Source: a virus
IMG/VR virus record: IMGVR_UViG_3300017991_000083
Location: 27,367 to 91,366 of that record
Length of the DNA: 64,000 bases
Strand: one strand, 5' to 3'
Shown here: positions 2,939-64,000 of the stretch, piece by piece
Numbering within the stretch: position 1 is the stretch's first letter
How the letters are laid out: each line of letters opens with the position of its first letter
The notes under the pieces: model-generated
What the model saw: only the letters and a program-made list of their open reading frames with translations
Told to the model about the DNA's origin: nothing
The model's database searches: none
Program-made: the position numbers and the translations under genes

Positions 2939-3337
2939 CTAGTGATATGGCCCTGCAGGACAGCCCTTGTCGCGCCACTTCTGGATGATCTCTTCGTAGC
3001 GTGCGCGGAACTGCATCGTGGACATGCCGCCGATGTGACGCATGAACTCGGCCACCAGATCTGCTACCCGATTGTCGAGGGTGCGGGGTGGTGTGGCCGG
3101 CAGCGGCTTGGGCTCGATGCGATGAATGACCCTGTGTGCCACAACGCTCCAGGGACAGTAAGGCCCGGGCTTGGTCGGCGGTGGCTGGCGGAACAGCGGT
3201 GTCCCGCCGCAGATCGTTATCTTCGACCGCGGCGCACAGCGCCGGCGCCAGAACCAGAGATGGGTCACGAGGATAGCGCTGTAGGACGCCAGGACGAAGA
3301 GGCAGAACAGCAGGATCTTGAAGAACACAATCGACAT
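2939..3337 (-). CDS. Membrane-anchored protein, 132 aa
   Basis: Residues about 4-30 form one N-terminal transmembrane helix followed by a basic stop-transfer run (WRRRC), so the bulk is probably on one side of the membrane with an uncleaved anchor. A Pro-rich linker (about 50-85) leads to a helical C-terminal region. ATG 3337 follows a GGGGGCTCCC site. Its place between the endolysin group and the helicase would suit a lysis accessory or a membrane-tethered virion factor. No family is recognised. Confidence 0.65.
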   Translation of the reverse strand: MSIVFFKILLFCLFVLASYSAILVTHLWFWRRRCAPRSKITICGGTPLFRQPPPTKPGPYCPWSVVAHRVIHRIEPKPLPATPPRTLDNRVADLVAEFMRHIGGMSTMQFRARYEEIIQKWRDKGCPAGPYH

Positions 3338-3413: not shown

Positions 3414-4025
3414 CTAGGAGAAACTCTCTGGTCGGAACGGGACCCTGGCCGGATCGAGACAGGCTGCCCACATGTGACGCTTCTTCTTCGTCGTCGTCGT
3501 GAGCTTCGCCCGGTGCTCGTAACGCTCCTTCGCGCACTGATACCAGGGCCGTTCAGCGTCGTGCAGCAGCAGGATCCCGTTCGGCTTGAGGAGAGTCCGG
3601 GACCTGATAACGCATCGCCGACGGAAGCGGCCGTCGACAATGACGATGTCGAACTTCTGACGCTTGATCGCACTCTCCGGGACGTCCTTGAGCTCCTCGG
3701 GATCTCCGTCTAGCCAGGGGAGCGCGATGTAGGTGTTCCCGTTCGTGTTCAGGGGCATGAAGTGGACGGTGACGGCCCCTTTCGGTATCTTCTCTTCCTT
3801 GACGCTGACCGCCACCTTGCCGCGGACGCGCTTGTTCCAGCTCTGGTGATGTTCGATGGACCGCCAGCGGAACCGGACCCCGAGCTTGTGCAGGAGCTCG
3901 GCGCACATGAGCGTACTGCCGCCGGAGCCCCACTCGAGGATCTCGAGCGGCTGGCCGGTCTCGGCGTAGGCCCGCATCACTTCCCGGAGAATCTCTATGT
4001 CGTCGGGGTCCATCCAGGGCTTCAT
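3414..4025 (-). CDS. Class I SAM-dependent methyltransferase-like protein, 203 aa
   Basis: Near residue 25 the motif LEILEWGSGGST matches the glycine-rich SAM-binding loop, and FDIVIVDGRFRR matches the acidic strand 4 region. LLKPNGILLLHDAE matches the later strand that ends these Rossmann folds (FkbM/TylF-like group). Such enzymes usually methylate sugars or small molecules. ATG 4025 overlaps the endolysin stop (ATGA). A second protein of this general type lies at 37082-37744, so the phage carries two. The substrate is unknown; a glycan made by the sugar-transferase block is a guess. Confidence 0.75.
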   Translation of the reverse strand: MKPWMDPDDIEILREVMRAYAETGQPLEILEWGSGGSTLMCAELLHKLGVRFRWRSIEHHQSWNKRVRGKVAVSVKEEKIPKGAVTVHFMPLNTNGNTYIALPWLDGDPEELKDVPESAIKRQKFDIVIVDGRFRRRCVIRSRTLLKPNGILLLHDAERPWYQCAKERYEHRAKLTTTTKKKRHMWAACLDPARVPFRPESFS

Positions 4026-26403: not shown

Positions 26404-28715
26404 TAGAGCTCCCTGACGTCTGCAACCCCGTAGTACATGTGCGTTATCATCCGAGGCGGCAGATCCCCACGGAACGGTTCCGCAGTCCCGCCGCCGGTTG
26501 TGGGCTGAGTCTCTTCGCCAGGCTGCCAGTTGGAGTAGCGGTCCTCAACATTCCGCTCGATGCCGCGGCCGGCATAGTAGCCGAGCTTAGCCCGGATCTT
26601 CGAGGTCGGCTGCACGTAGCCGAAGTGGTAGACCAGTTTGTCTGCCACTACCGCCTCTTTGTAGCCCGTCTCTGAGCGGACCGGGCGGCCCTCGCTGTCG
26701 ACGAACGTATTGAACGACTTCTCGTGATGGAAGCCCTGACTCCAGCGCCACATTCTCGGGATCTTCGACTCCCACTGAGGGCAGCCGACAGCGACCGTTG
26801 TGAAGTTCGTCCAGAAGTGATGGAAGCCCACGCGGACGATTGCCAGCTCACGGTCGTCTACGAACATCTTCATGAGGCGAGCGACGTCTTTCGGCTCCCA
26901 TATCTCGTCGCTATCGACCTTCATGTAGATGTCGCCCGTCACACGCTTGGCGATCGCGTTCTGCATCTCAACCTTGTCCTTCCACCGATGATCCTTGGGC
27001 GGGGGGACGAGAGTGATCTTCTCATCCGGGTCGGGATAGGCCGCGATCTTCTGGAGTGTCGCATCGGTGCTGGAGCCGCGCTCGTCGGCGTGTTGCCACA
27101 TCCCTTCGACTGCCCCCTCGACGATGATGATCTCGTGGGCGAGATCGTAGATGCCGTCGAGCGCCTCCGTGATGTAGGAGTCGCCGTTGAAGACTATCAT
27201 GCCGACGGAGAGCTTCGGGCCGTAGCCCCCTACCCGGAAGATGTCGAGGGACTTCTTGGTGCTCGCCTCGATGGTACACCAGTCCAGAATCCGGTCCCGG
27301 CCTCGGGCCACAGTCGCTGAGACTTCGGCGCGGTTTTCTGGCTCGAGCACCCAGGACACCTTTTCCGCGAAGTCGCCAGGGTCGCCCAGGCGTGCGTAGA
27401 AGACGCCGTCCCCGTAGGAACCACGGAGCACCGGGAGATCGTAAGCGACAACGGGCGTGTTCATGTAGAGCGCCTCTTCGGGGGGCATTCCGAACCCCTC
27501 GAACATGCTCGGGAACAGCAGTACGTCGGCTTTCTTGATGGCCTCGAACTTGGAGCGGTCGTCGACAATGCCCTGAACGTCGACGTAGAGATGGTTCTCA
27601 GCCCACTCGGGCCTCTTGGCGTCGAGCCTCTTCTGCTCGTTCGGGCCGACCTTACCCATCACCGTCACATGTGCCGAGCACTGCAGGGTCTCCGCAAGCG
27701 CATCGAACACCGCGATCGGGTTCTTGAAGTCGACCATCCTGGCACAGAACACGAGCTCGGCCCCGTACTCGGGCTCCTGCTCCCGCTCACGCGCCTCCGC
27801 CCTCGAGAGCTCGTCGTCTATCTCGTCCACATCATCGAAGATGGGATCGGCGATGCCCGCCAGAGTGGCGTCGGCCACAAGCTGGTTGATCGGCGGCTCG
27901 AGCACGAACCAGGGACCCTCGAAATCCGGAAGCCACTGTTGGGCCCATCTCGAGCTTACCGCGGACGGACTCACGATCCCGTCGCAGGTGAGCAGGCACT
28001 TCTTGTAGTTCGCCCAGTACTCCTCTGTCGCATCTCTGCCAGACGGATAGGTCATCCCCTTGAAGTTCGGGCTCTCGAAGAGGATCAGGTAACAGGGAAT
28101 GCCGAAACGCTCGGCGTAGGACTTGGCGAACTGGCCTCCGATGTTCGGCACACCAATGACGAAGTCGAACTCGTTCTCGGAGATGTCCATCCCCCATCGG
28201 GTGTCGACGATGCGCTCGAACCGCTCGAGGTTGTAGCCAAGGAAGTCCTTCTCGAACGGCGCCGGCGTGTTCGTGATGACCTTGACGTCCATGACCTGGG
28301 ACAGGATGACGCCAAGCAGATACATTGAGTAGCGTCCGCCCGTGTAGTGCGGCATCTGCTCCATGAAGATAGCGCAGCTCCGCGGGGCCTTGCTCGGGCC
28401 GTAGGTCAGATACTGGCGTTCTGATGGGAGAGGGATGAAGAGCGGGCTGGTCGCAAGCGCGACGAGCTGCCCGAGCTTGTGCGAGTCAGCGTTCTCGATG
28501 AACTTCTTGGGGATGGTTAGCTGATAGGCAGTAGGCAGTTCTTCAATGGAGATGTCCGGCACATCCTCATCGGCAGCGATGACGGGGCCGGACTCTACTG
28601 GCGTAGGGGCGGTTTCGCCCACAAAGGCCTTGCGACTCTCCAGCGGTGCGCCCCCGCCTTCGACGAAGTTCTTTGTGGGCTCGTCCCGCTCGAGGGACCG
28701 TTTCGTATCTCCCAT
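26403..28715 (-). CDS. Bifunctional glycosyltransferase (GT4 plus GT2), 770 aa
   Basis: Residues about 1-100 are a linker-like, Pro/Glu-rich N-terminus. About 100-490 is a GT4 domain with ELVFCARMVDFKNP and the Glu-x7-Glu motif in SMFEGFGMPPEEAL. From about 505 a GT2-like domain follows (VGMIVFNGDSYITEALDG; IIIVEG), with the DxD-type MKVDSDEIWEP and QGFHHEKSFNTF near the end. The fusion could make two linkages on one acceptor. It opens the sugar-transferase block, and its stop is shared with the next start. Confidence 0.88.
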   Translation of the reverse strand: MGDTKRSLERDEPTKNFVEGGGAPLESRKAFVGETAPTPVESGPVIAADEDVPDISIEELPTAYQLTIPKKFIENADSHKLGQLVALATSPLFIPLPSERQYLTYGPSKAPRSCAIFMEQMPHYTGGRYSMYLLGVILSQVMDVKVITNTPAPFEKDFLGYNLERFERIVDTRWGMDISENEFDFVIGVPNIGGQFAKSYAERFGIPCYLILFESPNFKGMTYPSGRDATEEYWANYKKCLLTCDGIVSPSAVSSRWAQQWLPDFEGPWFVLEPPINQLVADATLAGIADPIFDDVDEIDDELSRAEAREREQEPEYGAELVFCARMVDFKNPIAVFDALAETLQCSAHVTVMGKVGPNEQKRLDAKRPEWAENHLYVDVQGIVDDRSKFEAIKKADVLLFPSMFEGFGMPPEEALYMNTPVVAYDLPVLRGSYGDGVFYARLGDPGDFAEKVSWVLEPENRAEVSATVARGRDRILDWCTIEASTKKSLDIFRVGGYGPKLSVGMIVFNGDSYITEALDGIYDLAHEIIIVEGAVEGMWQHADERGSSTDATLQKIAAYPDPDEKITLVPPPKDHRWKDKVEMQNAIAKRVTGDIYMKVDSDEIWEPKDVARLMKMFVDDRELAIVRVGFHHFWTNFTTVAVGCPQWESKIPRMWRWSQGFHHEKSFNTFVDSEGRPVRSETGYKEAVVADKLVYHFGYVQPTSKIRAKLGYYAGRGIERNVEDRYSNWQPGEETQPTTGGGTAEPFRGDLPPRMITHMYYGVADVREL

Positions 28716-51072: not shown

Positions 51073-51100
51073 GACACGACGGGTCCGGACCCGTCGTGTC
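51073..51100. terminator. Perfect 28-bp palindrome between genes
   Basis: GACACGACGGGTCC followed by its exact complement. It lies in the 134-base gap after the gene ending at 51112 or 51153 and before the start at 50977. No T-tract follows on the minus strand; it is symmetrical, so it could act as a hairpin or as a protein-binding dyad. Confidence 0.48.
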
Positions 51101-54654: not shown

Positions 54655-55079
54655 CAACTCTCTCCCCTCGAAAGATCGTCCTCGGCGTAGGGGGCACTCG
54701 GGCCATCAGGAATTACCCCCTGTATCCACCCAACAGCAGGCCCCGCTCCGCCCTCGCCCCCCCCCACGCCTCGGACCCGTAACACGCCCTCATCCCATAT
54801 ACGCCAATCCCCCGCCCCCTGGGACAAGGATTCTCGACCATCGTTGCGGCCCGCCGCCCTATGTGACAGTTTTCCTCTCACTTCCCCCCGCTTACAGCAA
54901 CTGTCAGACGATTCCTGGGCCAGCCCTCAGGAACTGAGACTTTTTCGATTTTTCCCTGGTGGCGGTGAAGGGGATAATGCACAGGATGGTGGATTTTCTT
55001 CGTGGTGGTGGAAGTCGTTGCAGGGCAACAACTTAGGGGCGCGACCTTGACAACTTGCGAGGGGTCGCTCAGGAATCCC
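54655..55079. promoter_or_regulatory. AT-richer intergenic region before the small-gene block
   Basis: No gene fits. It has a GACAGTT/AACTGTC dyad (54865-54871 and 54899-54905), the GATTGGCGTATAT motif at 54809-54797 (minus strand, shared with 3.4 kb), a GTTGC/GCAAC hairpin near 55020, and a TTGACA on the plus strand near 55048 that has no clear -10 partner. Base composition drops in GC compared with the next 2 kb. Promoters for 54654 downwards are expected here but I cannot fix one. Confidence 0.4.
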
Positions 55080-55591
55080 CTAACCGTCGACGGGGCGCCC
55101 GGTTGCGGCGCTCGAGGGCGCCGGCGCCGTCGGCCGGCCCTGGCCCTGGCCCGGGGCCCTGGGGCAATCCCCAGGGGGCCGCGGGTCGGCCTAACTTGCG
55201 ACCGGGCCGGCGTTTGGGCCGGGTCCAGGGGGCCCAGGTTTACAGAATAGCTATTATGCGACGCTGGCCGGCCTAACTGACGGCGGGGCAATCACTTAGC
55301 GCCTGACGTCAGGGCGCCCGGGGGGCCGGGCCGGGGCCAGGGCCGGGGCGATCCGGGGGGCCGGCCCCAGGGGAGACGGGCGACGGCCGGGCCCCGAATC
55401 CGGCCCCGGCGCCGGCCCTGGCCCTGGACCCGACCGGCGACACGGGGGCGTCAGGGGGTCCCCGGGTGCGCCCGGGGTCCAGGGGGGGCGCTCGAGGGGC
55501 GCCGGGGGTGCGGGTGCGGGGGTCCAGGGGGCGGGCCTGGGGGTCGGTTGCCGGCCTGGGGGGGGCGGCCAGGGTCGGGGGCGTTCGTCGA

Positions 55592-55683
55592 TCCTGGGGC
55601 GATCCTGGGGCCCTGGCGGGCGCCCTGGTCGGGGGTCCGGCCCTGGCCCTGGGGCGGGCGCTCGAGCTCTCCGGGCGCCGGCC
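55592..55683 (+). repeat. 92-bp exact direct repeat, copy 1
   Basis: Identical to 56113-56204, 521 bp away. It begins TCCTGGGGCGATCCTGGGG and ends CTCGAGCTCTCCGGGCGCC. Both copies follow a GGGGGCGTTCGT module. Confidence 0.85.
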
Positions 55684-56112
55684 CTGGCCCTGGCGCTCGA
55701 GCTCTCCGGGCGGGGTCCAGGGGGCGGGGGGGGCGCTCGAGCTCTCCCCCTGGGGCGTCGGGTGCGGGGGAGCTCTCGAGGGGGCGGGCCAGGGCGGGGG
55801 TGCTCAGGGTCGGGGGCGGGGGCGTTCGTGTCTCCTGGGGGGCGTACGGGGGCCGGTTTGGGTGCGGTCGGGGCGTTTGGGCGTTTTCGGGGGCCTTTTG
55901 GGGTCGCCGGCGGGCGTCAGGGGTCGGGCGGTCGGCGCTCCTGGGGGCGCTCTCGAGCTCTCCGGGCGCCGGCCTGGGGCCTGGGGGGGCGATCCTGGGG
56001 GCGTCAGGGGGCGGGGGCGCTCTCCGGGTGCGGCGTCAGGGCGTCAGGGTCGCCCCTGGGCGGGCCCTGGGGCCTGGGGCGGCCAGGGGTGCGGCCTGGG
56101 GGCGTTCGTGTC

Positions 56113-56204
56113 TCCTGGGGCGATCCTGGGGCCCTGGCGGGCGCCCTGGTCGGGGGTCCGGCCCTGGCCCTGGGGCGGGCGCTCGAGCTCTCCGGGCGCC
56201 GGCC
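56113..56204 (+). repeat. 92-bp exact direct repeat, copy 2
   Basis: Identical to 55592-55683. The flanks diverge beyond the GGGGGCGTTCGT module, so the unit was copied as a block. Confidence 0.85.
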
Positions 56205-56951
56205 TGGGGGCGCTCTCGAGGGTCGGCGGGGGAGCTCTCCGGGCGGGGGTCCAGGGGGGGCGCTCGAGCTCTCCCCGGGGGGCGCTCTCGAGGGGGCGCC
56301 CTTGCGCCCTGGGTGCAGGGGGCGCCCTGGGGGCCGCGGGCGTTTTCGGCGGTTTCGGGGGATCCCCGGCGCCGTTTTCGGCGGTTTCGGCGTTTGGGCG
56401 GTTTCGTTTGGGCGGGGCGTTTTCGGGGGGGCCTATTCGATCGCGGCCGGGGGCCGCGGGCGCCCTCGAGGGGGGGGCGCCGGCGCCGGCCGGGGCCGGT
56501 GTCGGCGGGTCGGGTCCGGGGGCCCTCGAGGGCCGGCCCTGGGGCGCTCTCGAGCTCTCCGGCCGCGGCCAGGTCGGGGCGCTCTCGAGGGGGCGGCCCT
56601 GGGGCGATCCTGGGGCCGTCAGGGCGCCCCGGCGGCCTGGGGCGGCCAGGGGTCCGGCCTGGGGGCGTTCGTCGATCCTGGGGCGATCCTGGGCCCCTGG
56701 GGGGCGCTCCTGGGGGCGCTCTCGAGCTCTCCCCAGGGGCGCTCTCGAGGGGGCGGCCTTGCGGCATATCCGCGGCGATCCTGGGCGATATGCGGCGCCG
56801 GTACGGGGAGCGCCCCCCGCGGCCCTGGGACCTGGGCGCGGGGGGCGGGTGCGGTGTTGCGGGGATCGGGGCGGGCGGGCGGGGGCGCCCTGGGCGCCGG
56901 CGGGGTCCTCACGCCGGCGGGCGCCCCCTGGGGGCGGTCCCGGCGGGCGTG

Positions 56952-60332: not shown

Positions 60333-60362
60333 ATGGTAGCACGCCGGCGCCCAGGCCGTCAA
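60333..60362 (-). promoter_or_regulatory. Early promoter (minus) for the Ala-rich gene group
   Basis: TTGACG (60362-60357), 18 bp, TACCAT (60338-60333) with the extended TGC just upstream. Same design as the dnaN promoter and the two plus-strand promoters. The predicted start at 60326 coincides with an ATG. Confidence 0.75.
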
Positions 60363-60661: not shown

Positions 60662-60806
60662 GGCGCCGGCCCTGGCCCTGGCGGGGGAGCTCGAGCGCCG
60701 GCCGGCCCTGGCCCTGGCGGGGGAGCTCGAGCGCCGGCCGGCCCTGGCCCTGGCGGGGGAGCTCGAGCGCCGGCCGGCCCTGGCCCTGGCGGGGGAGCTC
60801 GGCGCC
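60662..60806 (+). repeat. 36-bp tandem repeat, four units
   Basis: GAGCTC landmarks at 60687, 60723, 60759 and 60795 give an exact 36-bp period. Each unit is GGCCCTGGCCCTGGCGGGGG then AGCTCGAGCGCCGGCC. No spacers between units, so this is not a CRISPR array. Confidence 0.85.
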
Positions 60807-60835
60807 GGCCTCGAGGGCGCCGGGGCGGTTCGGCC

Positions 60836-60865
60836 TTGACTCGAGGCCGGCCGGCGTGCTACAAT
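60836..60865 (+). promoter_or_regulatory. Plus-strand promoter A
   Basis: TTGACT (60836-60841), 18 bp, TACAAT (60860-60865) preceded by TGC (extended -10). Very close to consensus. It points away from the coding strand into a region with no gene but with the 26-bp repeats and a terminator. It defines a plus-strand transcript starting near 60872. Confidence 0.82.
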
Positions 60866-61002: not shown

Positions 61003-61199
61003 GCTTGCGAGCGATATGCCGACCCCTAGCTTGCGAGCGATATGCCGACCCCTAGCTTGCGAGCGATATGCCGACCCCTAGCTTGCGAGCGATCCCGACC
61101 CCCTTAGCTTGCGAGCGATCTCGAGACCGCGACCTTGCGAGCGATCTCGAGACCGCGACCTTGCGAGCGATCTCGAGACCGCGACCTTGCGAGCGATCC
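61003..61199 (+). repeat. 26-bp phased repeat array, eight copies
   Basis: CTTGCGAGCGAT begins at 61004, 61030, 61056, 61082, 61108, 61134, 61160 and 61186, always 26 bp apart. The bases between copies change (ATGCCGACCC, CCCGACC, CTCGAGACCGCGAC) while the spacing does not. Each core contains GCTTGCGAGC or a close form, a short dyad able to make a UGCG-loop hairpin in RNA. In one frame repeated TAG codons block translation, so it is not protein. Confidence 0.88.
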
Positions 61200-61260: not shown

Positions 61261-61297
61261 GCCCCCGTTTGTGCGGGGGCGTTTTCGTTGTGTTTTC
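61261..61297 (+). terminator. Intrinsic terminator of the plus-strand RNA
   Basis: GCCCCCG-TTTGTG-CGGGGGC followed by GTTTTCGTTGTGTTTTC. The 7-bp GC stem with a U-rich tail on the plus strand is a standard rho-independent terminator. It lies at the end of the minus-strand gene 61297, whose stop is in the tail, so the two opposite transcripts meet here. Confidence 0.85.
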
Positions 61298-62097
61298 TAG
61301 GTCGCCGGGGGCGCCTCAAGGGCCCCGGCGACCCGGGCCGCGGCCTTGAGCTCGGCGTCGCGGGCGGCCTCGGCGTCGTCATAGTCGACAATCCGAACCT
61401 GGACCCCCGGCGTCGCGTCGCCGACGTGGGCGACGCCCCCCAGGACCTCGACGGTCACAAACGGGGCGCCGTCGATCTCCAGGCCGGCCAGGGCGATCTC
61501 GAGCTCTCCGGCGACGTACTCCGCGGCCTGGCGCCTCGGCTCGATCTCCGGGAACTCGCCCCCCTCAACGTCGGCGGCGGCCGCGGCCAGGAGCTCGACC
61601 TCGGCTCTCAGGGCCCGGATTGCGAAACGGGCCCGGTCGGCCAGGGCCTCGGCGCCGGCGCGGGCGACCTCGAGGGCCTGGGCGTACTCCTCGACCTCGC
61701 GGGCGTGTCGGTACTCCGTCATAACTTCCTGATCCTCGGCCTCGAGCGAATAGTACGCCCTCAGGTCGGCGGCCCAGGTGTCCAGGACCTCGGCGTCGCC
61801 CCGGCCCCCGTGTACCTGGGCGCCCGGCGACACGTACTCAGCCAGGGCGTCGATCACGTACTGCACGCCGTCAGGCGTCAGGGAAGCGCCCAGGTACTCC
61901 CCACATTCTGCACAGTGCAGGGGCGAATCCGTTTCGCCCCCGCCGTCAGGATACGGGCCGGCCGGCCAGGTGTCGGTGTCGGCGTCATCACGCGACGGGC
62001 GCCGGGCCGGGGCCCTGCCGGCGGCCTCGAGCTCGGCCTGGATCGCGGCGGCGCAAGTTTCACAGTAGATGTCGGCCTGGTAGATGTAGACGTCCAT
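61297..62097 (-). CDS. Zinc-ribbon-like phage protein, 266 aa
   Basis: ATG 62097 has AGGGGGGC. The N-terminal half holds CETC in YQADIYCETCAAAIQAELEA and CAEC in DSPLHCAECGEYLGASLTPD, two CxxC knuckles for one zinc. A helical Ala-rich half follows (EYAQALEVARAGAEALADRA), then a strand end (VTVEVLGGVAHVGDATPGVQ). Similar proteins with the same CETC/CAEC core are common in phages, function unknown. It is the gene after dnaN. Confidence 0.75.
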   Translation of the reverse strand: MDVYIYQADIYCETCAAAIQAELEAAGRAPARRPSRDDADTDTWPAGPYPDGGGETDSPLHCAECGEYLGASLTPDGVQYVIDALAEYVSPGAQVHGGRGDAEVLDTWAADLRAYYSLEAEDQEVMTEYRHAREVEEYAQALEVARAGAEALADRARFAIRALRAEVELLAAAAADVEGGEFPEIEPRRQAAEYVAGELEIALAGLEIDGAPFVTVEVLGGVAHVGDATPGVQVRIVDYDDAEAARDAELKAAARVAGALEAPPAT

Positions 62098-62177: not shown

Positions 62178-63386
62178 CTACTTCTCGAGTCTCAGGGGCA
62201 TCAGGATCGACCTGACGCCCTGGGCGCCCTGGTCGCCGGCGGCCTCGATCACGGCCGCGGCGACGGGCTTGGTCCATCCGACCCTGATCCGCTCCCCCTC
62301 GGGGAGATGCACCAGGGCGGCGGCCAGGTAGTCGCCATTGTATCCGGCGGTGAACTCGGCGGGCCCGCCGTCGACGTCGATGTACTCCCAGGCCTCGCCG
62401 ACGTCGGGCGTCGACACGGCGACCTTGCAGCGCCCCTTGCGGACCTCGAGACGAACCTGGTTCGTCAGGGTGTCGGCCAGGGGGGCGACGCGATCCAGGG
62501 CGCCGGCCAGGGCGGCCCGGTCGAACGTCGCCCAGGTCGCCGGCGTCGGGATCACTTGACGGTAGTTTGGGAATGGCCCCTCGAGCGCCCGGGCGACGAT
62601 AGTGACCAGGCCGATCTTGAACCCGACCCGGCCGGCCCCGTCGGCCTCGACGTATCCGAACCTGACAGGCGCCGGGGGCAGTTTCGCCTTGCGGGCGGCC
62701 TTCAGGTCGGCCGCGGCCTCGGCGGCGGCCAGGGCCAGGGCCTTTGGCGGCACTATGACGGCCTTGTCGGCCAGGCCGTTGGTGCGGGCGGGGAGCTCGG
62801 CGGAGACCAGGCGGTGGCCGTCGGTCGCCGTCGCCAGGACCTGGCCGTCGCCGACCTCGACAAACACACCGTTTAGACTCGGGCGCGTTTCGTCGGTCGA
62901 CGTGCAGAACCTGACGCGATTGTCCAGGGCGACCAGGGCCTCGGCGTCGATCTCGAGGCCCGGCGCCGGCGCCGGCCGGATCGACGGGAACTCGGGCGCC
63001 GGGAATCCCAGGACCTTGACGGTTGTCGGGCCCAGGGTGAGCTCGGCGCTCTCCGGGTCGCCGGGCTCGGTCTCCCCCTCGGCGGGCGCCGGGGTCTCGG
63101 CGTATATGGTCACGGCCTCGATCCCCTTTGCGCCCTTCAGGACCTTCAGGAGACGGTCGACGCCCAGGACCACGGCCCCGGCCTCGAGCTCGGCGCCGGC
63201 CTCGGCGGCGATCCGCCGGGTCACGGTCACGTCTAGGTCGGTCGCCGTCGCCAGGAGCTCTCCGGCCTCGACGTCGACGGTCATGTACGCCCCCGACAGT
63301 ACGGGGAGCGTCGCCTTGTTCGATGCTACTTTCTTCAGGCCCCTCAGGGCGCTCTCCAGGTCGGCACGTGCTACGGTTGCCCTCAT
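62178..63386 (-). CDS. dnaN: DNA polymerase III beta subunit (sliding clamp)
   Basis: 402 aa in the clamp layout: MRATVARADLESALRGLKKV at the start, PVLSGAYMTVDVEAGELLAT, LLKVLKGAKGIEAVTIY, then PEFPSIRPAP, TRPSLNGVFVEVGDGQVLAT, ATDGHRLVSAELPAR, and a C-terminal NGDYLAAALVHLPEGERIRV. The last residues (RSILMPLRLEK) resemble the clamp MPMRL end that binds clamp-binding peptides. It tethers a DNA polymerase to DNA. ATG 63386 with AGGGGGC is the start; an upstream in-frame extension is poor. Confidence 0.92.
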   Translation of the reverse strand: MRATVARADLESALRGLKKVASNKATLPVLSGAYMTVDVEAGELLATATDLDVTVTRRIAAEAGAELEAGAVVLGVDRLLKVLKGAKGIEAVTIYAETPAPAEGETEPGDPESAELTLGPTTVKVLGFPAPEFPSIRPAPAPGLEIDAEALVALDNRVRFCTSTDETRPSLNGVFVEVGDGQVLATATDGHRLVSAELPARTNGLADKAVIVPPKALALAAAEAAADLKAARKAKLPPAPVRFGYVEADGAGRVGFKIGLVTIVARALEGPFPNYRQVIPTPATWATFDRAALAGALDRVAPLADTLTNQVRLEVRKGRCKVAVSTPDVGEAWEYIDVDGGPAEFTAGYNGDYLAAALVHLPEGERIRVGWTKPVAAAVIEAAGDQGAQGVRSILMPLRLEK

Positions 63387-63460: not shown

Positions 63461-63490
63461 AGTCTAGCATACATGCCCCCATGCTGTCAA
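63461..63490 (-). promoter_or_regulatory. dnaN promoter
   Basis: TTGACA (63490-63485), 18 bp, TAGACT (63466-63461) with a TGC extension. It lies about 70 bp upstream of the dnaN start and is divergent from plus promoter B, with 14 bp between the two -35 boxes. Confidence 0.82.
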
Positions 63491-63504: not shown

Positions 63505-63534
63505 TTGCGTCAGGGTCGGCCGGCGTGCTAGACT
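63505..63534 (+). promoter_or_regulatory. Plus-strand promoter B
   Basis: TTGCGT (63505-63510), 18 bp, TAGACT (63529-63534) with TGC extension. It reads into the 49-bp and 24-bp repeat arrays and has no gene downstream on this strand. Confidence 0.72.
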
Positions 63535-63589
63535 CGAGGCCTCGAGCGATCCCCAGGGCCCGGCCCTGGGGAGCTCGACGTCGGCCCCG

Positions 63590-63715
63590 GCCGGCGCCCA
63601 GGGGGAGCTCGAGGGCCCCGACCTGGCGCCGGCCTCGAGGGGGCGCCCAGGGGGAGCTCGAGGGCCCCGACCTGGCGCCGGCCTCGAGGGGGCGCCCAGG
63701 GGGAGCTCGAGGGCC
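63590..63715 (+). repeat. 49-bp tandem repeat
   Basis: GAGCTC landmarks at 63605, 63654 and 63703 give a 49-bp period. The unit runs GGCGCCCAGGGGGAGCTCGA then GGGCCCCGACCTGGCGCC and GGCCTCGAGG. Two full units and parts of a third. Confidence 0.8.
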
Positions 63716-63743
63716 CGGGACCGGCGGCGATATGTCGCCCCCT

Positions 63744-63830
63744 AGCTTGCGAGCGATCCCGACCTCGAGCTTGCGAGCGATCCCGACCTCGAGCTTGCGA
63801 GCGATCCCGACCTCGAGCTTGCGAGCGATC
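63744..63830 (+). repeat. 24-bp phased repeat array, four copies
   Basis: CTTGCGAGCGAT begins at 63746, 63770, 63794 and 63818, 24 bp apart, separated by CCCGACCTCGAG. Same core as the 61.0 kb array, with different spacing. Confidence 0.88.
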
Positions 63831-63841
63831 CCGACCAACAC

Positions 63842-63875
63842 AAGGGGCCCCAGGTCTATAGACCTGGGGCCCCTT
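63842..63875. terminator. Perfect 34-bp palindrome
   Basis: AAGGGGCCCCAGGTCTA is followed by its exact complement. Hairpin formation would give a 15-bp stem with a TATA loop. It could stop the plus-strand RNA from promoter B or be bound by a dimer. Two more core repeats follow at 63878 and 63904. Confidence 0.6.
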
Positions 63876-63919
63876 AGCTTGCGAGCGATATGTCGCCCCC
63901 TAGCTTGCGAGCGATCCCG
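63876..63919 (+). repeat. Two further CTTGCGAGCGAT copies after the palindrome
   Basis: Core copies at 63878 and 63904, 26 bp apart as in the first array. They end two bases before the stop of the right-hand gene fragment. Confidence 0.8.
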
Positions 63920-64000
63920 TCAACCGGCGGCGGCGGCCGACGTGGGCTCTCGGTAGCCCAGGGGGACCCGGTTGCGAATCTGCCCCTTCAGTCGGTCGGC
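63920..64000 (-). CDS. C-terminal end of a gene entering from the right
   Basis: 26 codons and a TGA are open from the window edge: ADRLKGQIRNRVPLGYREP then TSAAAAG. The text is plausible coding and the stop sits just before the repeats. Nothing more can be said. Confidence 0.5.
   Translation of the reverse strand, partial: ADRLKGQIRNRVPLGYREPTSAAAAG

Follow-up and report, generated by a model that had tools for sequence, protein, structure and literature searches.

Three plus-strand clusters of a 12-bp direct repeat around dnaN in a circular phage contig as candidate iteron-like DNA sites

Introduction

Plasmids and phage-plasmids such as P1, RK2 and F have iteron arrays composed of short asymmetric direct repeats at a spacing of about two helical turns, with several clusters in each replicon. 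Among phages, Bacillus phage SPP1 possesses two origins, oriL and oriR, consisting of direct repeats that are bound by gp38 (PMC6316719). Direct repeats also serve other purposes: RedRock-type mycobacteriophages are temperate and carry parABS systems with parS loci, found in more than one place, of eight direct repeats with an 8-bp motif, and in the non-RepA phages a counter-strand noncoding RNA has been tied to replication (PMC7157519). In phage PhiTE, expanded pseudo-ToxI repeats are expressed as a noncoding RNA and enable escape from ToxIN (PMC3475682). Here we describe a repeat system that resembles each of these in part, located in a 91,366-bp virus contig. The window, i.e. the whole stretch of 64,000 nucleotides analysed, comprises bases 27367-91366, the right end of this circular phage contig.

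Results

Bases 1-123 of the contig are identical to window positions 63878-64000. This 123-bp end overlap indicates that the contig is circular, with a length of about 91,243 bp (91.2 kb), and further that the locus designated B spans the join and that its last two repeats are present twice in the record. A simple codon-based gene finder placed all predicted genes on the minus strand, except for a 65-aa ORF at contig 3665-3862. The 12-bp core CTTGCGAGCGAT occurs in 19 distinct copies at three loci, A (eight copies), B (six) and C (five), and nowhere else in the contig (Table 1). All 19 are carried by the plus strand, whereas nearly all genes are minus-strand. All three loci are contained in about 6.4 kb of the circle, around dnaN, and each array sits between the end of one minus-strand operon and the promoter of the next; at locus B the last core ends 4 bp short of the stop codon (63920) of a converging minus-strand gene. 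Within the window, the 14 exact cores (14/14) form two clusters, with no further site at one mismatch or fewer, while up to two mismatches yielded 17 matches compared with a mean of 8.45 in shuffles of the window.

Table 1. Positions of promoters, repeats, palindrome and neighbouring genes at the three loci (window coordinates unless marked as contig).
Feature	Position	Strand	Details
Locus A divergent promoter	60333..60362	-	TTGACG-18-TACCAT
Locus A 36-bp G+C-rich repeats	60665..60810	+	4.1 copies with GGGGGAGCTCGAG; upstream of plus promoter
Locus A plus promoter	60836..60865	+	TTGACT-18-TACAAT, TG before -10; best-scoring plus-strand site in contig
Locus A array	61004..61197	+	Eight cores CTTGCGAGCGAT, 26-bp spacing
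Locus A intrinsic terminator	61261..61280	plus only	GCCCCCGTTTGTGCGGGGGC then GTTTTCGTTG; predicted to close the locus A transcript
266-aa protein gene	61297..62097	-	Downstream of dnaN, converges on locus A
dnaN (sliding clamp)	62178..63386	-	Between loci A and B
Locus B divergent promoter	63461..63490	-	TTGACA-18-TAGACT, for dnaN operon
Locus B plus promoter-like site	63505..63534	+	TTGCGT-18-TAGACT, TG before -10; moderate only, good extended -10 but poor -35
Locus B 49-bp G+C-rich repeat	63593..63716	+	2.5 copies with GGGGGAGCTCGAG, 100% identical
Locus B first array	63746..63829	+	Four cores CTTGCGAGCGAT, 24-bp spacing; starts 63746, 63770, 63794, 63818
Locus B perfect palindrome	63842..63875		34 bp, AAGGGGCCCCAGGTCTATAGACCTGGGGCCCCTT; single copy, locus B only
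Locus B last two cores	63878..63915	+	26-bp spacing; starts 63878, 63904
Locus C promoter	contig 3177	-
Locus C promoter	contig 3258	+	Good
Locus C array	contig 3505-3618	+	Five cores, outside window; starts 3505, 3531, 3557, 3583, 3607

Alignment of the cores revealed invariance at 11 of 12 positions, and also of an A two bases upstream. Three locus C copies (3557, 3583 and 3607) carry one changed base each, and all three differences sit at core position 5, which is what a protein site with a single unconstrained base would show. Steps inside the arrays are only ever 24 or 26 bp, the sole exception being a 60-bp step across the locus B palindrome, and the linkers are strongly divergent both between and within loci. 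A fixed word and fixed spacing combined with a free linker point to selection on a recognition site, and the unit lengths of 24, 26, 36 and 49 bp fit no single reading frame, which makes a coding role unlikely. The three-locus repeat system is real and under selection. A preliminary description of this DNA had placed the 49-bp repeats, the four 24-bp-spaced cores, the perfect 34-bp palindrome and the two 26-bp-spaced cores of locus B exactly where we find them. It had counted two loci, both of which are real, and had missed a third of the same build at C; its argument for a shared function, as opposed to accident, is reinforced by this third locus and by the near-invariance of the core while linkers differ.

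An island at 82-91 kb of the contig has a GC content of 75-81% and is rich in short repeats, as might be anticipated if the arrays were functionless by-products of slippage in unstable G+C-rich DNA. However, an invariant core with divergent linkers recurs at three separate loci, one of which lies outside the island, and we consider slippage the least probable of the explanations weighed here. A stretch of ~2.3 kb at window 54655-56950, roughly 80% GC and free of predicted genes, is also marked by the recurring words CCTGG, CTCGAG and GGCGCC; it carries GGGAGAGCTCGAG in the orientation opposite to that of the array loci.

Each of the three loci is a divergent promoter region in which the plus-strand promoters face the arrays, and the minus-strand promoters at 63490, 60362 and contig 3177 start operons. 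Consensus promoters are rare in this DNA: four were found in the 4-kb region against 0.1 expected. The plus-strand site of locus B had been described as a promoter of the same design as that of the other locus. Its -10 region does match that of the 60836 promoter, and GGCCGGCGTGCTA is common to both; its poor -35 element, however, makes it weaker than claimed, with a score of 8.5 versus 11.5, and it is absent from the consensus scan list. G+C-rich repeats containing GGGRGAGCTCGAG are found in two to four copies per locus, in every case 5' of the cores, and are located upstream of the plus promoter at A and downstream of it at B and C. This second repeat type therefore falls outside the locus A plus transcript and yet precedes the cores there as it does at the other loci, favouring a function at the level of DNA. 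We also dropped the idea of an R-loop zone in G-rich sequence following the promoters, the locus A leader being C-rich and its G-rich repeats lying upstream of the promoter. A further palindrome, CTGTTCATATTCTGAACAG, which may be a repressor operator, is located at contig 3221-3239 (locus L011), flanked by the two divergent promoters of locus C and within the part of the contig richest in AT.

The spacer of the locus B minus promoter holds GCATGGGGGCATG, which is common to the locus C minus promoter, and the region is thus probably regulated. Such regulation could act at the arrays themselves, were they operator or roadblock clusters at which a phage transcription regulator insulates the divergent early promoters from one another or coordinates them, and prevents read-through from one minus-strand operon into the next. 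The placement of every array between an operon end and the next promoter, the shared spacer, and the positions of the locus B palindrome and locus A terminator at converging transcript ends would all be consistent with this role. Conversely, classical operators are not usually placed as the cores are, at 0.2-0.8 kb from the minus promoters and on the downstream side of the plus promoters, and a simple operator would require fewer than five to eight tandem sites. On these grounds we regard an operator or roadblock function as rather improbable.

RNA sponges of the CsrB type titrate a factor, and the plus transcripts might by analogy represent three noncoding RNAs in which CUUGNGAGCGAU, repeated 5-8 times, serves to titrate a small RNA or an RNA-binding protein of host or phage. 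The two best TTG-type plus-strand promoters are found at loci A and C of a genome that is otherwise minus-coding, no gene lies behind the plus promoters of loci A and B, and locus A combines promoter, array and plus-only terminator within about 0.4 kb. Furthermore, RNA from the plus strand of the arrays folds far better than shuffled sequences (z -5.75, -4.87 and -2.85), with cores pairing to cores through G-U pairs; for the minus strand the effect is slight or absent (z +0.47, -2.25 and +2.32). The core-core pairing is nevertheless not kept: the first G is changed to C in three copies with no compensating change, the centre varies, and the fold of locus C is at shuffle level (z -1.03). Shuffles are also a poor control for a repeated near-palindrome. 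Because of the missing compensation and the failure at locus C, RNA pairing was weighed lightly. Added to this are the weak plus promoter of locus B, the continuation of locus C into the 65-aa ORF, which lacks a family match, and the absence of any Rfam match within the window. Titration by RNA is the main, if tentative, alternative, and its fuller form, in which a virulent phage reserves its plus strand almost solely for three coordinated noncoding RNAs of tandem CUUGNGAGCGAU and uses them to titrate, at an early stage of infection, a factor of phage or host, is doubtful.

The promoter, tandem repeats and terminator of locus A also match the layout by which PhiTE escapes ToxIN (PMC3475682), so that the arrays might encode decoy RNAs mimicking a host defence RNA, either a type III antitoxin (ToxI) or CRISPR repeats (Racr). 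The ToxI unit of ~36 nt is conserved along its length, whereas here only 12-14 nt are conserved, at a period of 24-26 nt and between free linkers. The same short conserved part and period, together with the negative Rfam search of the window, set the arrays apart from CRISPR repeats, and about 85,000 species genomes yielded no matching array. A decoy of either kind is therefore very unlikely.

The preliminary description had proposed that the 34-bp palindrome marks either the end of the transcript or the centre of an origin. No other perfect palindrome of the contig is as long, the runner-up being 28 bp, and its predicted fold is a hairpin of 15 bp closed by a 4-nt loop, at -34 to -35 kcal/mol whichever strand is taken. 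The U-tails that follow the UU of the stem, AGCUUGCG on the plus and GUGUUGGU on the minus strand, are weak, the minus-strand tail being the better of the two. The stable hairpin and its position between converging transcripts, even with weak U-tails, fit a transcript end better, and a putative bidirectional terminator is the likely and best reading. A place at the centre of an origin finds no support, the palindrome being absent from loci A and C, and its restriction to locus B likewise excludes it from the shared function. A hairpin telomere was considered and given little weight, no protelomerase being seen among the 25 best Pfam families listed for 84 scanned proteins. Elsewhere, between minus-strand genes, a 28-bp perfect intergenic palindrome, GACACGACGGGTCCGGACCCGTCGTGTC, is located at window 51073-51100.

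The phage encodes its own replisome genes, comprising DnaB, a DnaG-like primase, Pol III alpha with a separate PHP piece, DnaN and RecA. Further family matches include SbcC, a metallophosphoesterase that is probably SbcD, uracil-DNA glycosylase, a SNF2 helicase, portal protein and terminase. Among the best Pfam/PHROG families listed (up to 25 per list) for the 84 scanned proteins, which include some but not all of the structural ones, no integrase, ParA-like ATPase or ParB was found, and by this gene content the phage looks virulent. These findings bear on a further explanation, namely that the arrays are partition sites, i.e. parS or centromere-like direct repeats, of a plasmid-like prophage. 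Although the multiple eight-repeat parS loci of RedRock-type phages (PMC7157519) offer a precedent, the lack of these proteins among the families listed and the virulent look of the gene content make partition highly improbable.

Relatives of the locus were sought in several collections. No nucleotide match to the region was found in annotated phages, nor any annotated relative with the array, and scans with the clamp and polymerase identified no relatives. Terminase scans placed two phages nearest, L054 and L146, at 53-54% identity; these are partial genomes, and the part that each holds is devoid of the array. Array-pattern scans of viral contigs produced one real look-alike, three copies of CTTGAGAGCGAT at 24-bp spacing (L044 795-850), in an unrelated 75-kb phage of 44% GC with a 127-bp end overlap. 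Its repeats lie in a noncoding stretch of ~1 kb with a G-rich stretch upstream, and the minimum of its cumulative GC skew is 0.8 kb away; the query itself allowed the CTTGAGAGCGAT variant, so this match is weak and serves as a lead only. What looser array patterns matched were simple repeats, coding repeats and a small number of iteron-like arrays without relation to it. Intergenic arrays of iteron-like build in other viral contigs, at L103 3989-4100 (CTCAACCTTGAGAGCACC) and L134 2782-2960 (AGTACCTTGTGAGGCACTA), are likewise unrelated to the core. The species genomes contributed only chance, coding or dispersed repeats. In one Propionibacteriales MAG (L050, genome G006) the 12-mer is found 26 times, as part of a dispersed 40-bp element, GGTGGTCGAGCAGCGAGCTTGCGAGCGATCAGTCGAGACC, of which there are about 26 copies. 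Other genomes of the order are at background and a wider scan found no carrier of the extended phage unit, and we consider the occurrence probably a coincidence.

Discussion

From their sequence features, the arrays are best explained as iteron-like clusters for a phage DNA-binding protein, probably one of replication, as at oriL and oriR of SPP1, a reading to which we assign a rough probability of 0.4 and which we favour over titration by RNA. We infer that direct repeats of an asymmetric site, A(G/C)CTTGNGAGCGAT, would be bound in double-stranded DNA by a single sequence-specific protein. This protein would most likely be encoded by the phage and be its replication initiator or replisome organiser. 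A candidate for this binder is a 304-aa winged-helix-like protein, whose gene (contig 26587-27501) is just upstream of that of the DnaB helicase. Once bound, the protein might open or mark an origin, or restrain it at the remaining loci; early and replication genes would be driven by the divergent promoters on the flanks. The 34-bp palindrome would be accessory to this arrangement, acting as a hairpin terminator between the locus B plus transcript and the converging minus transcript. Locus C, which adjoins the 50 bp of the contig with the highest AT content (64% AT against a mean of 36%), is the best origin candidate. At the other two loci there is no clear unwinding element, the AT-rich element being absent at A (75th percentile) and marginal at B (98th).

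That an origin lies at the arrays, as the preliminary description had also suggested, is possible. Direct repeats beside dnaN, in a phage with its own DnaB, primase, Pol III alpha and clamp, agree with this proposal, whereas a clear AT-rich element is confined to locus C and GC skew at fourfold sites, a weak origin proxy for a phage, shows no switch at the arrays. Skew changes fall instead near 28.5 and 66.4 kb, where the structural block begins and ends. Across this block (contig 28.5-66.4 kb) it is negative, and over most of the rest, save the G+C-rich island, it is near zero or positive. Origins are often located within or beside the initiator gene, and the distance of ~23-30 kb between the arrays and the candidate initiator gene counts against the iteron-like reading, as do spacings of 24 and 26 bp that are not whole helical turns. 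The 304-aa candidate itself shows weak HTH matches only, has no homologue in phage or plasmid records, and gave an unusable structure prediction (mean pLDDT 40). No cluster of DnaA boxes was found.

If the cores are initiator sites, this phage would combine its own Pol III-type replisome with three iteron clusters in one small region, making it well suited to the question of how replication is initiated and kept in check in such phages. Were they instead to function as RNA sponges, they would represent a new class of phage regulatory RNA. Under either reading, the 12-bp word and its 24/26-bp spacing offer a precise and testable target.

Like pseudo-ToxI of PhiTE, the loci are intergenic tandem repeats of a phage, but they consist of a 12-nt core with free linkers in place of 36-nt pseudoknot units. 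Similarly, the RedRock-type phages share with our contig the presence of more than one locus with as many as eight direct repeats, and differ in their 8-bp motif and parABS system, for which no ParA or integrase counterpart is present among the families listed here. Both parS arrays and pseudo-ToxI resemble the loci in layout while failing or lacking the defining features. The iterons of P1, RK2 and F likewise consist of short asymmetric direct repeats in several clusters, although no Rep_3/RepA-type initiator was found in this phage and its arrays are spaced at 24/26 bp within the divergent promoters of a large phage genome. The phage differs from SPP1 in having three loci, a repeat word with no known match, a clear AT-rich element at only one of the loci, and an initiator that is a candidate only. 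Shared with SPP1 are a virulent lifestyle as judged by gene content, a phage DnaB-type helicase, and clusters of direct repeats at more than one locus, which in SPP1 are bound by a single origin protein (PMC6316719). By analogy, and with no claim of membership, the arrays would work most like the origins of SPP1.
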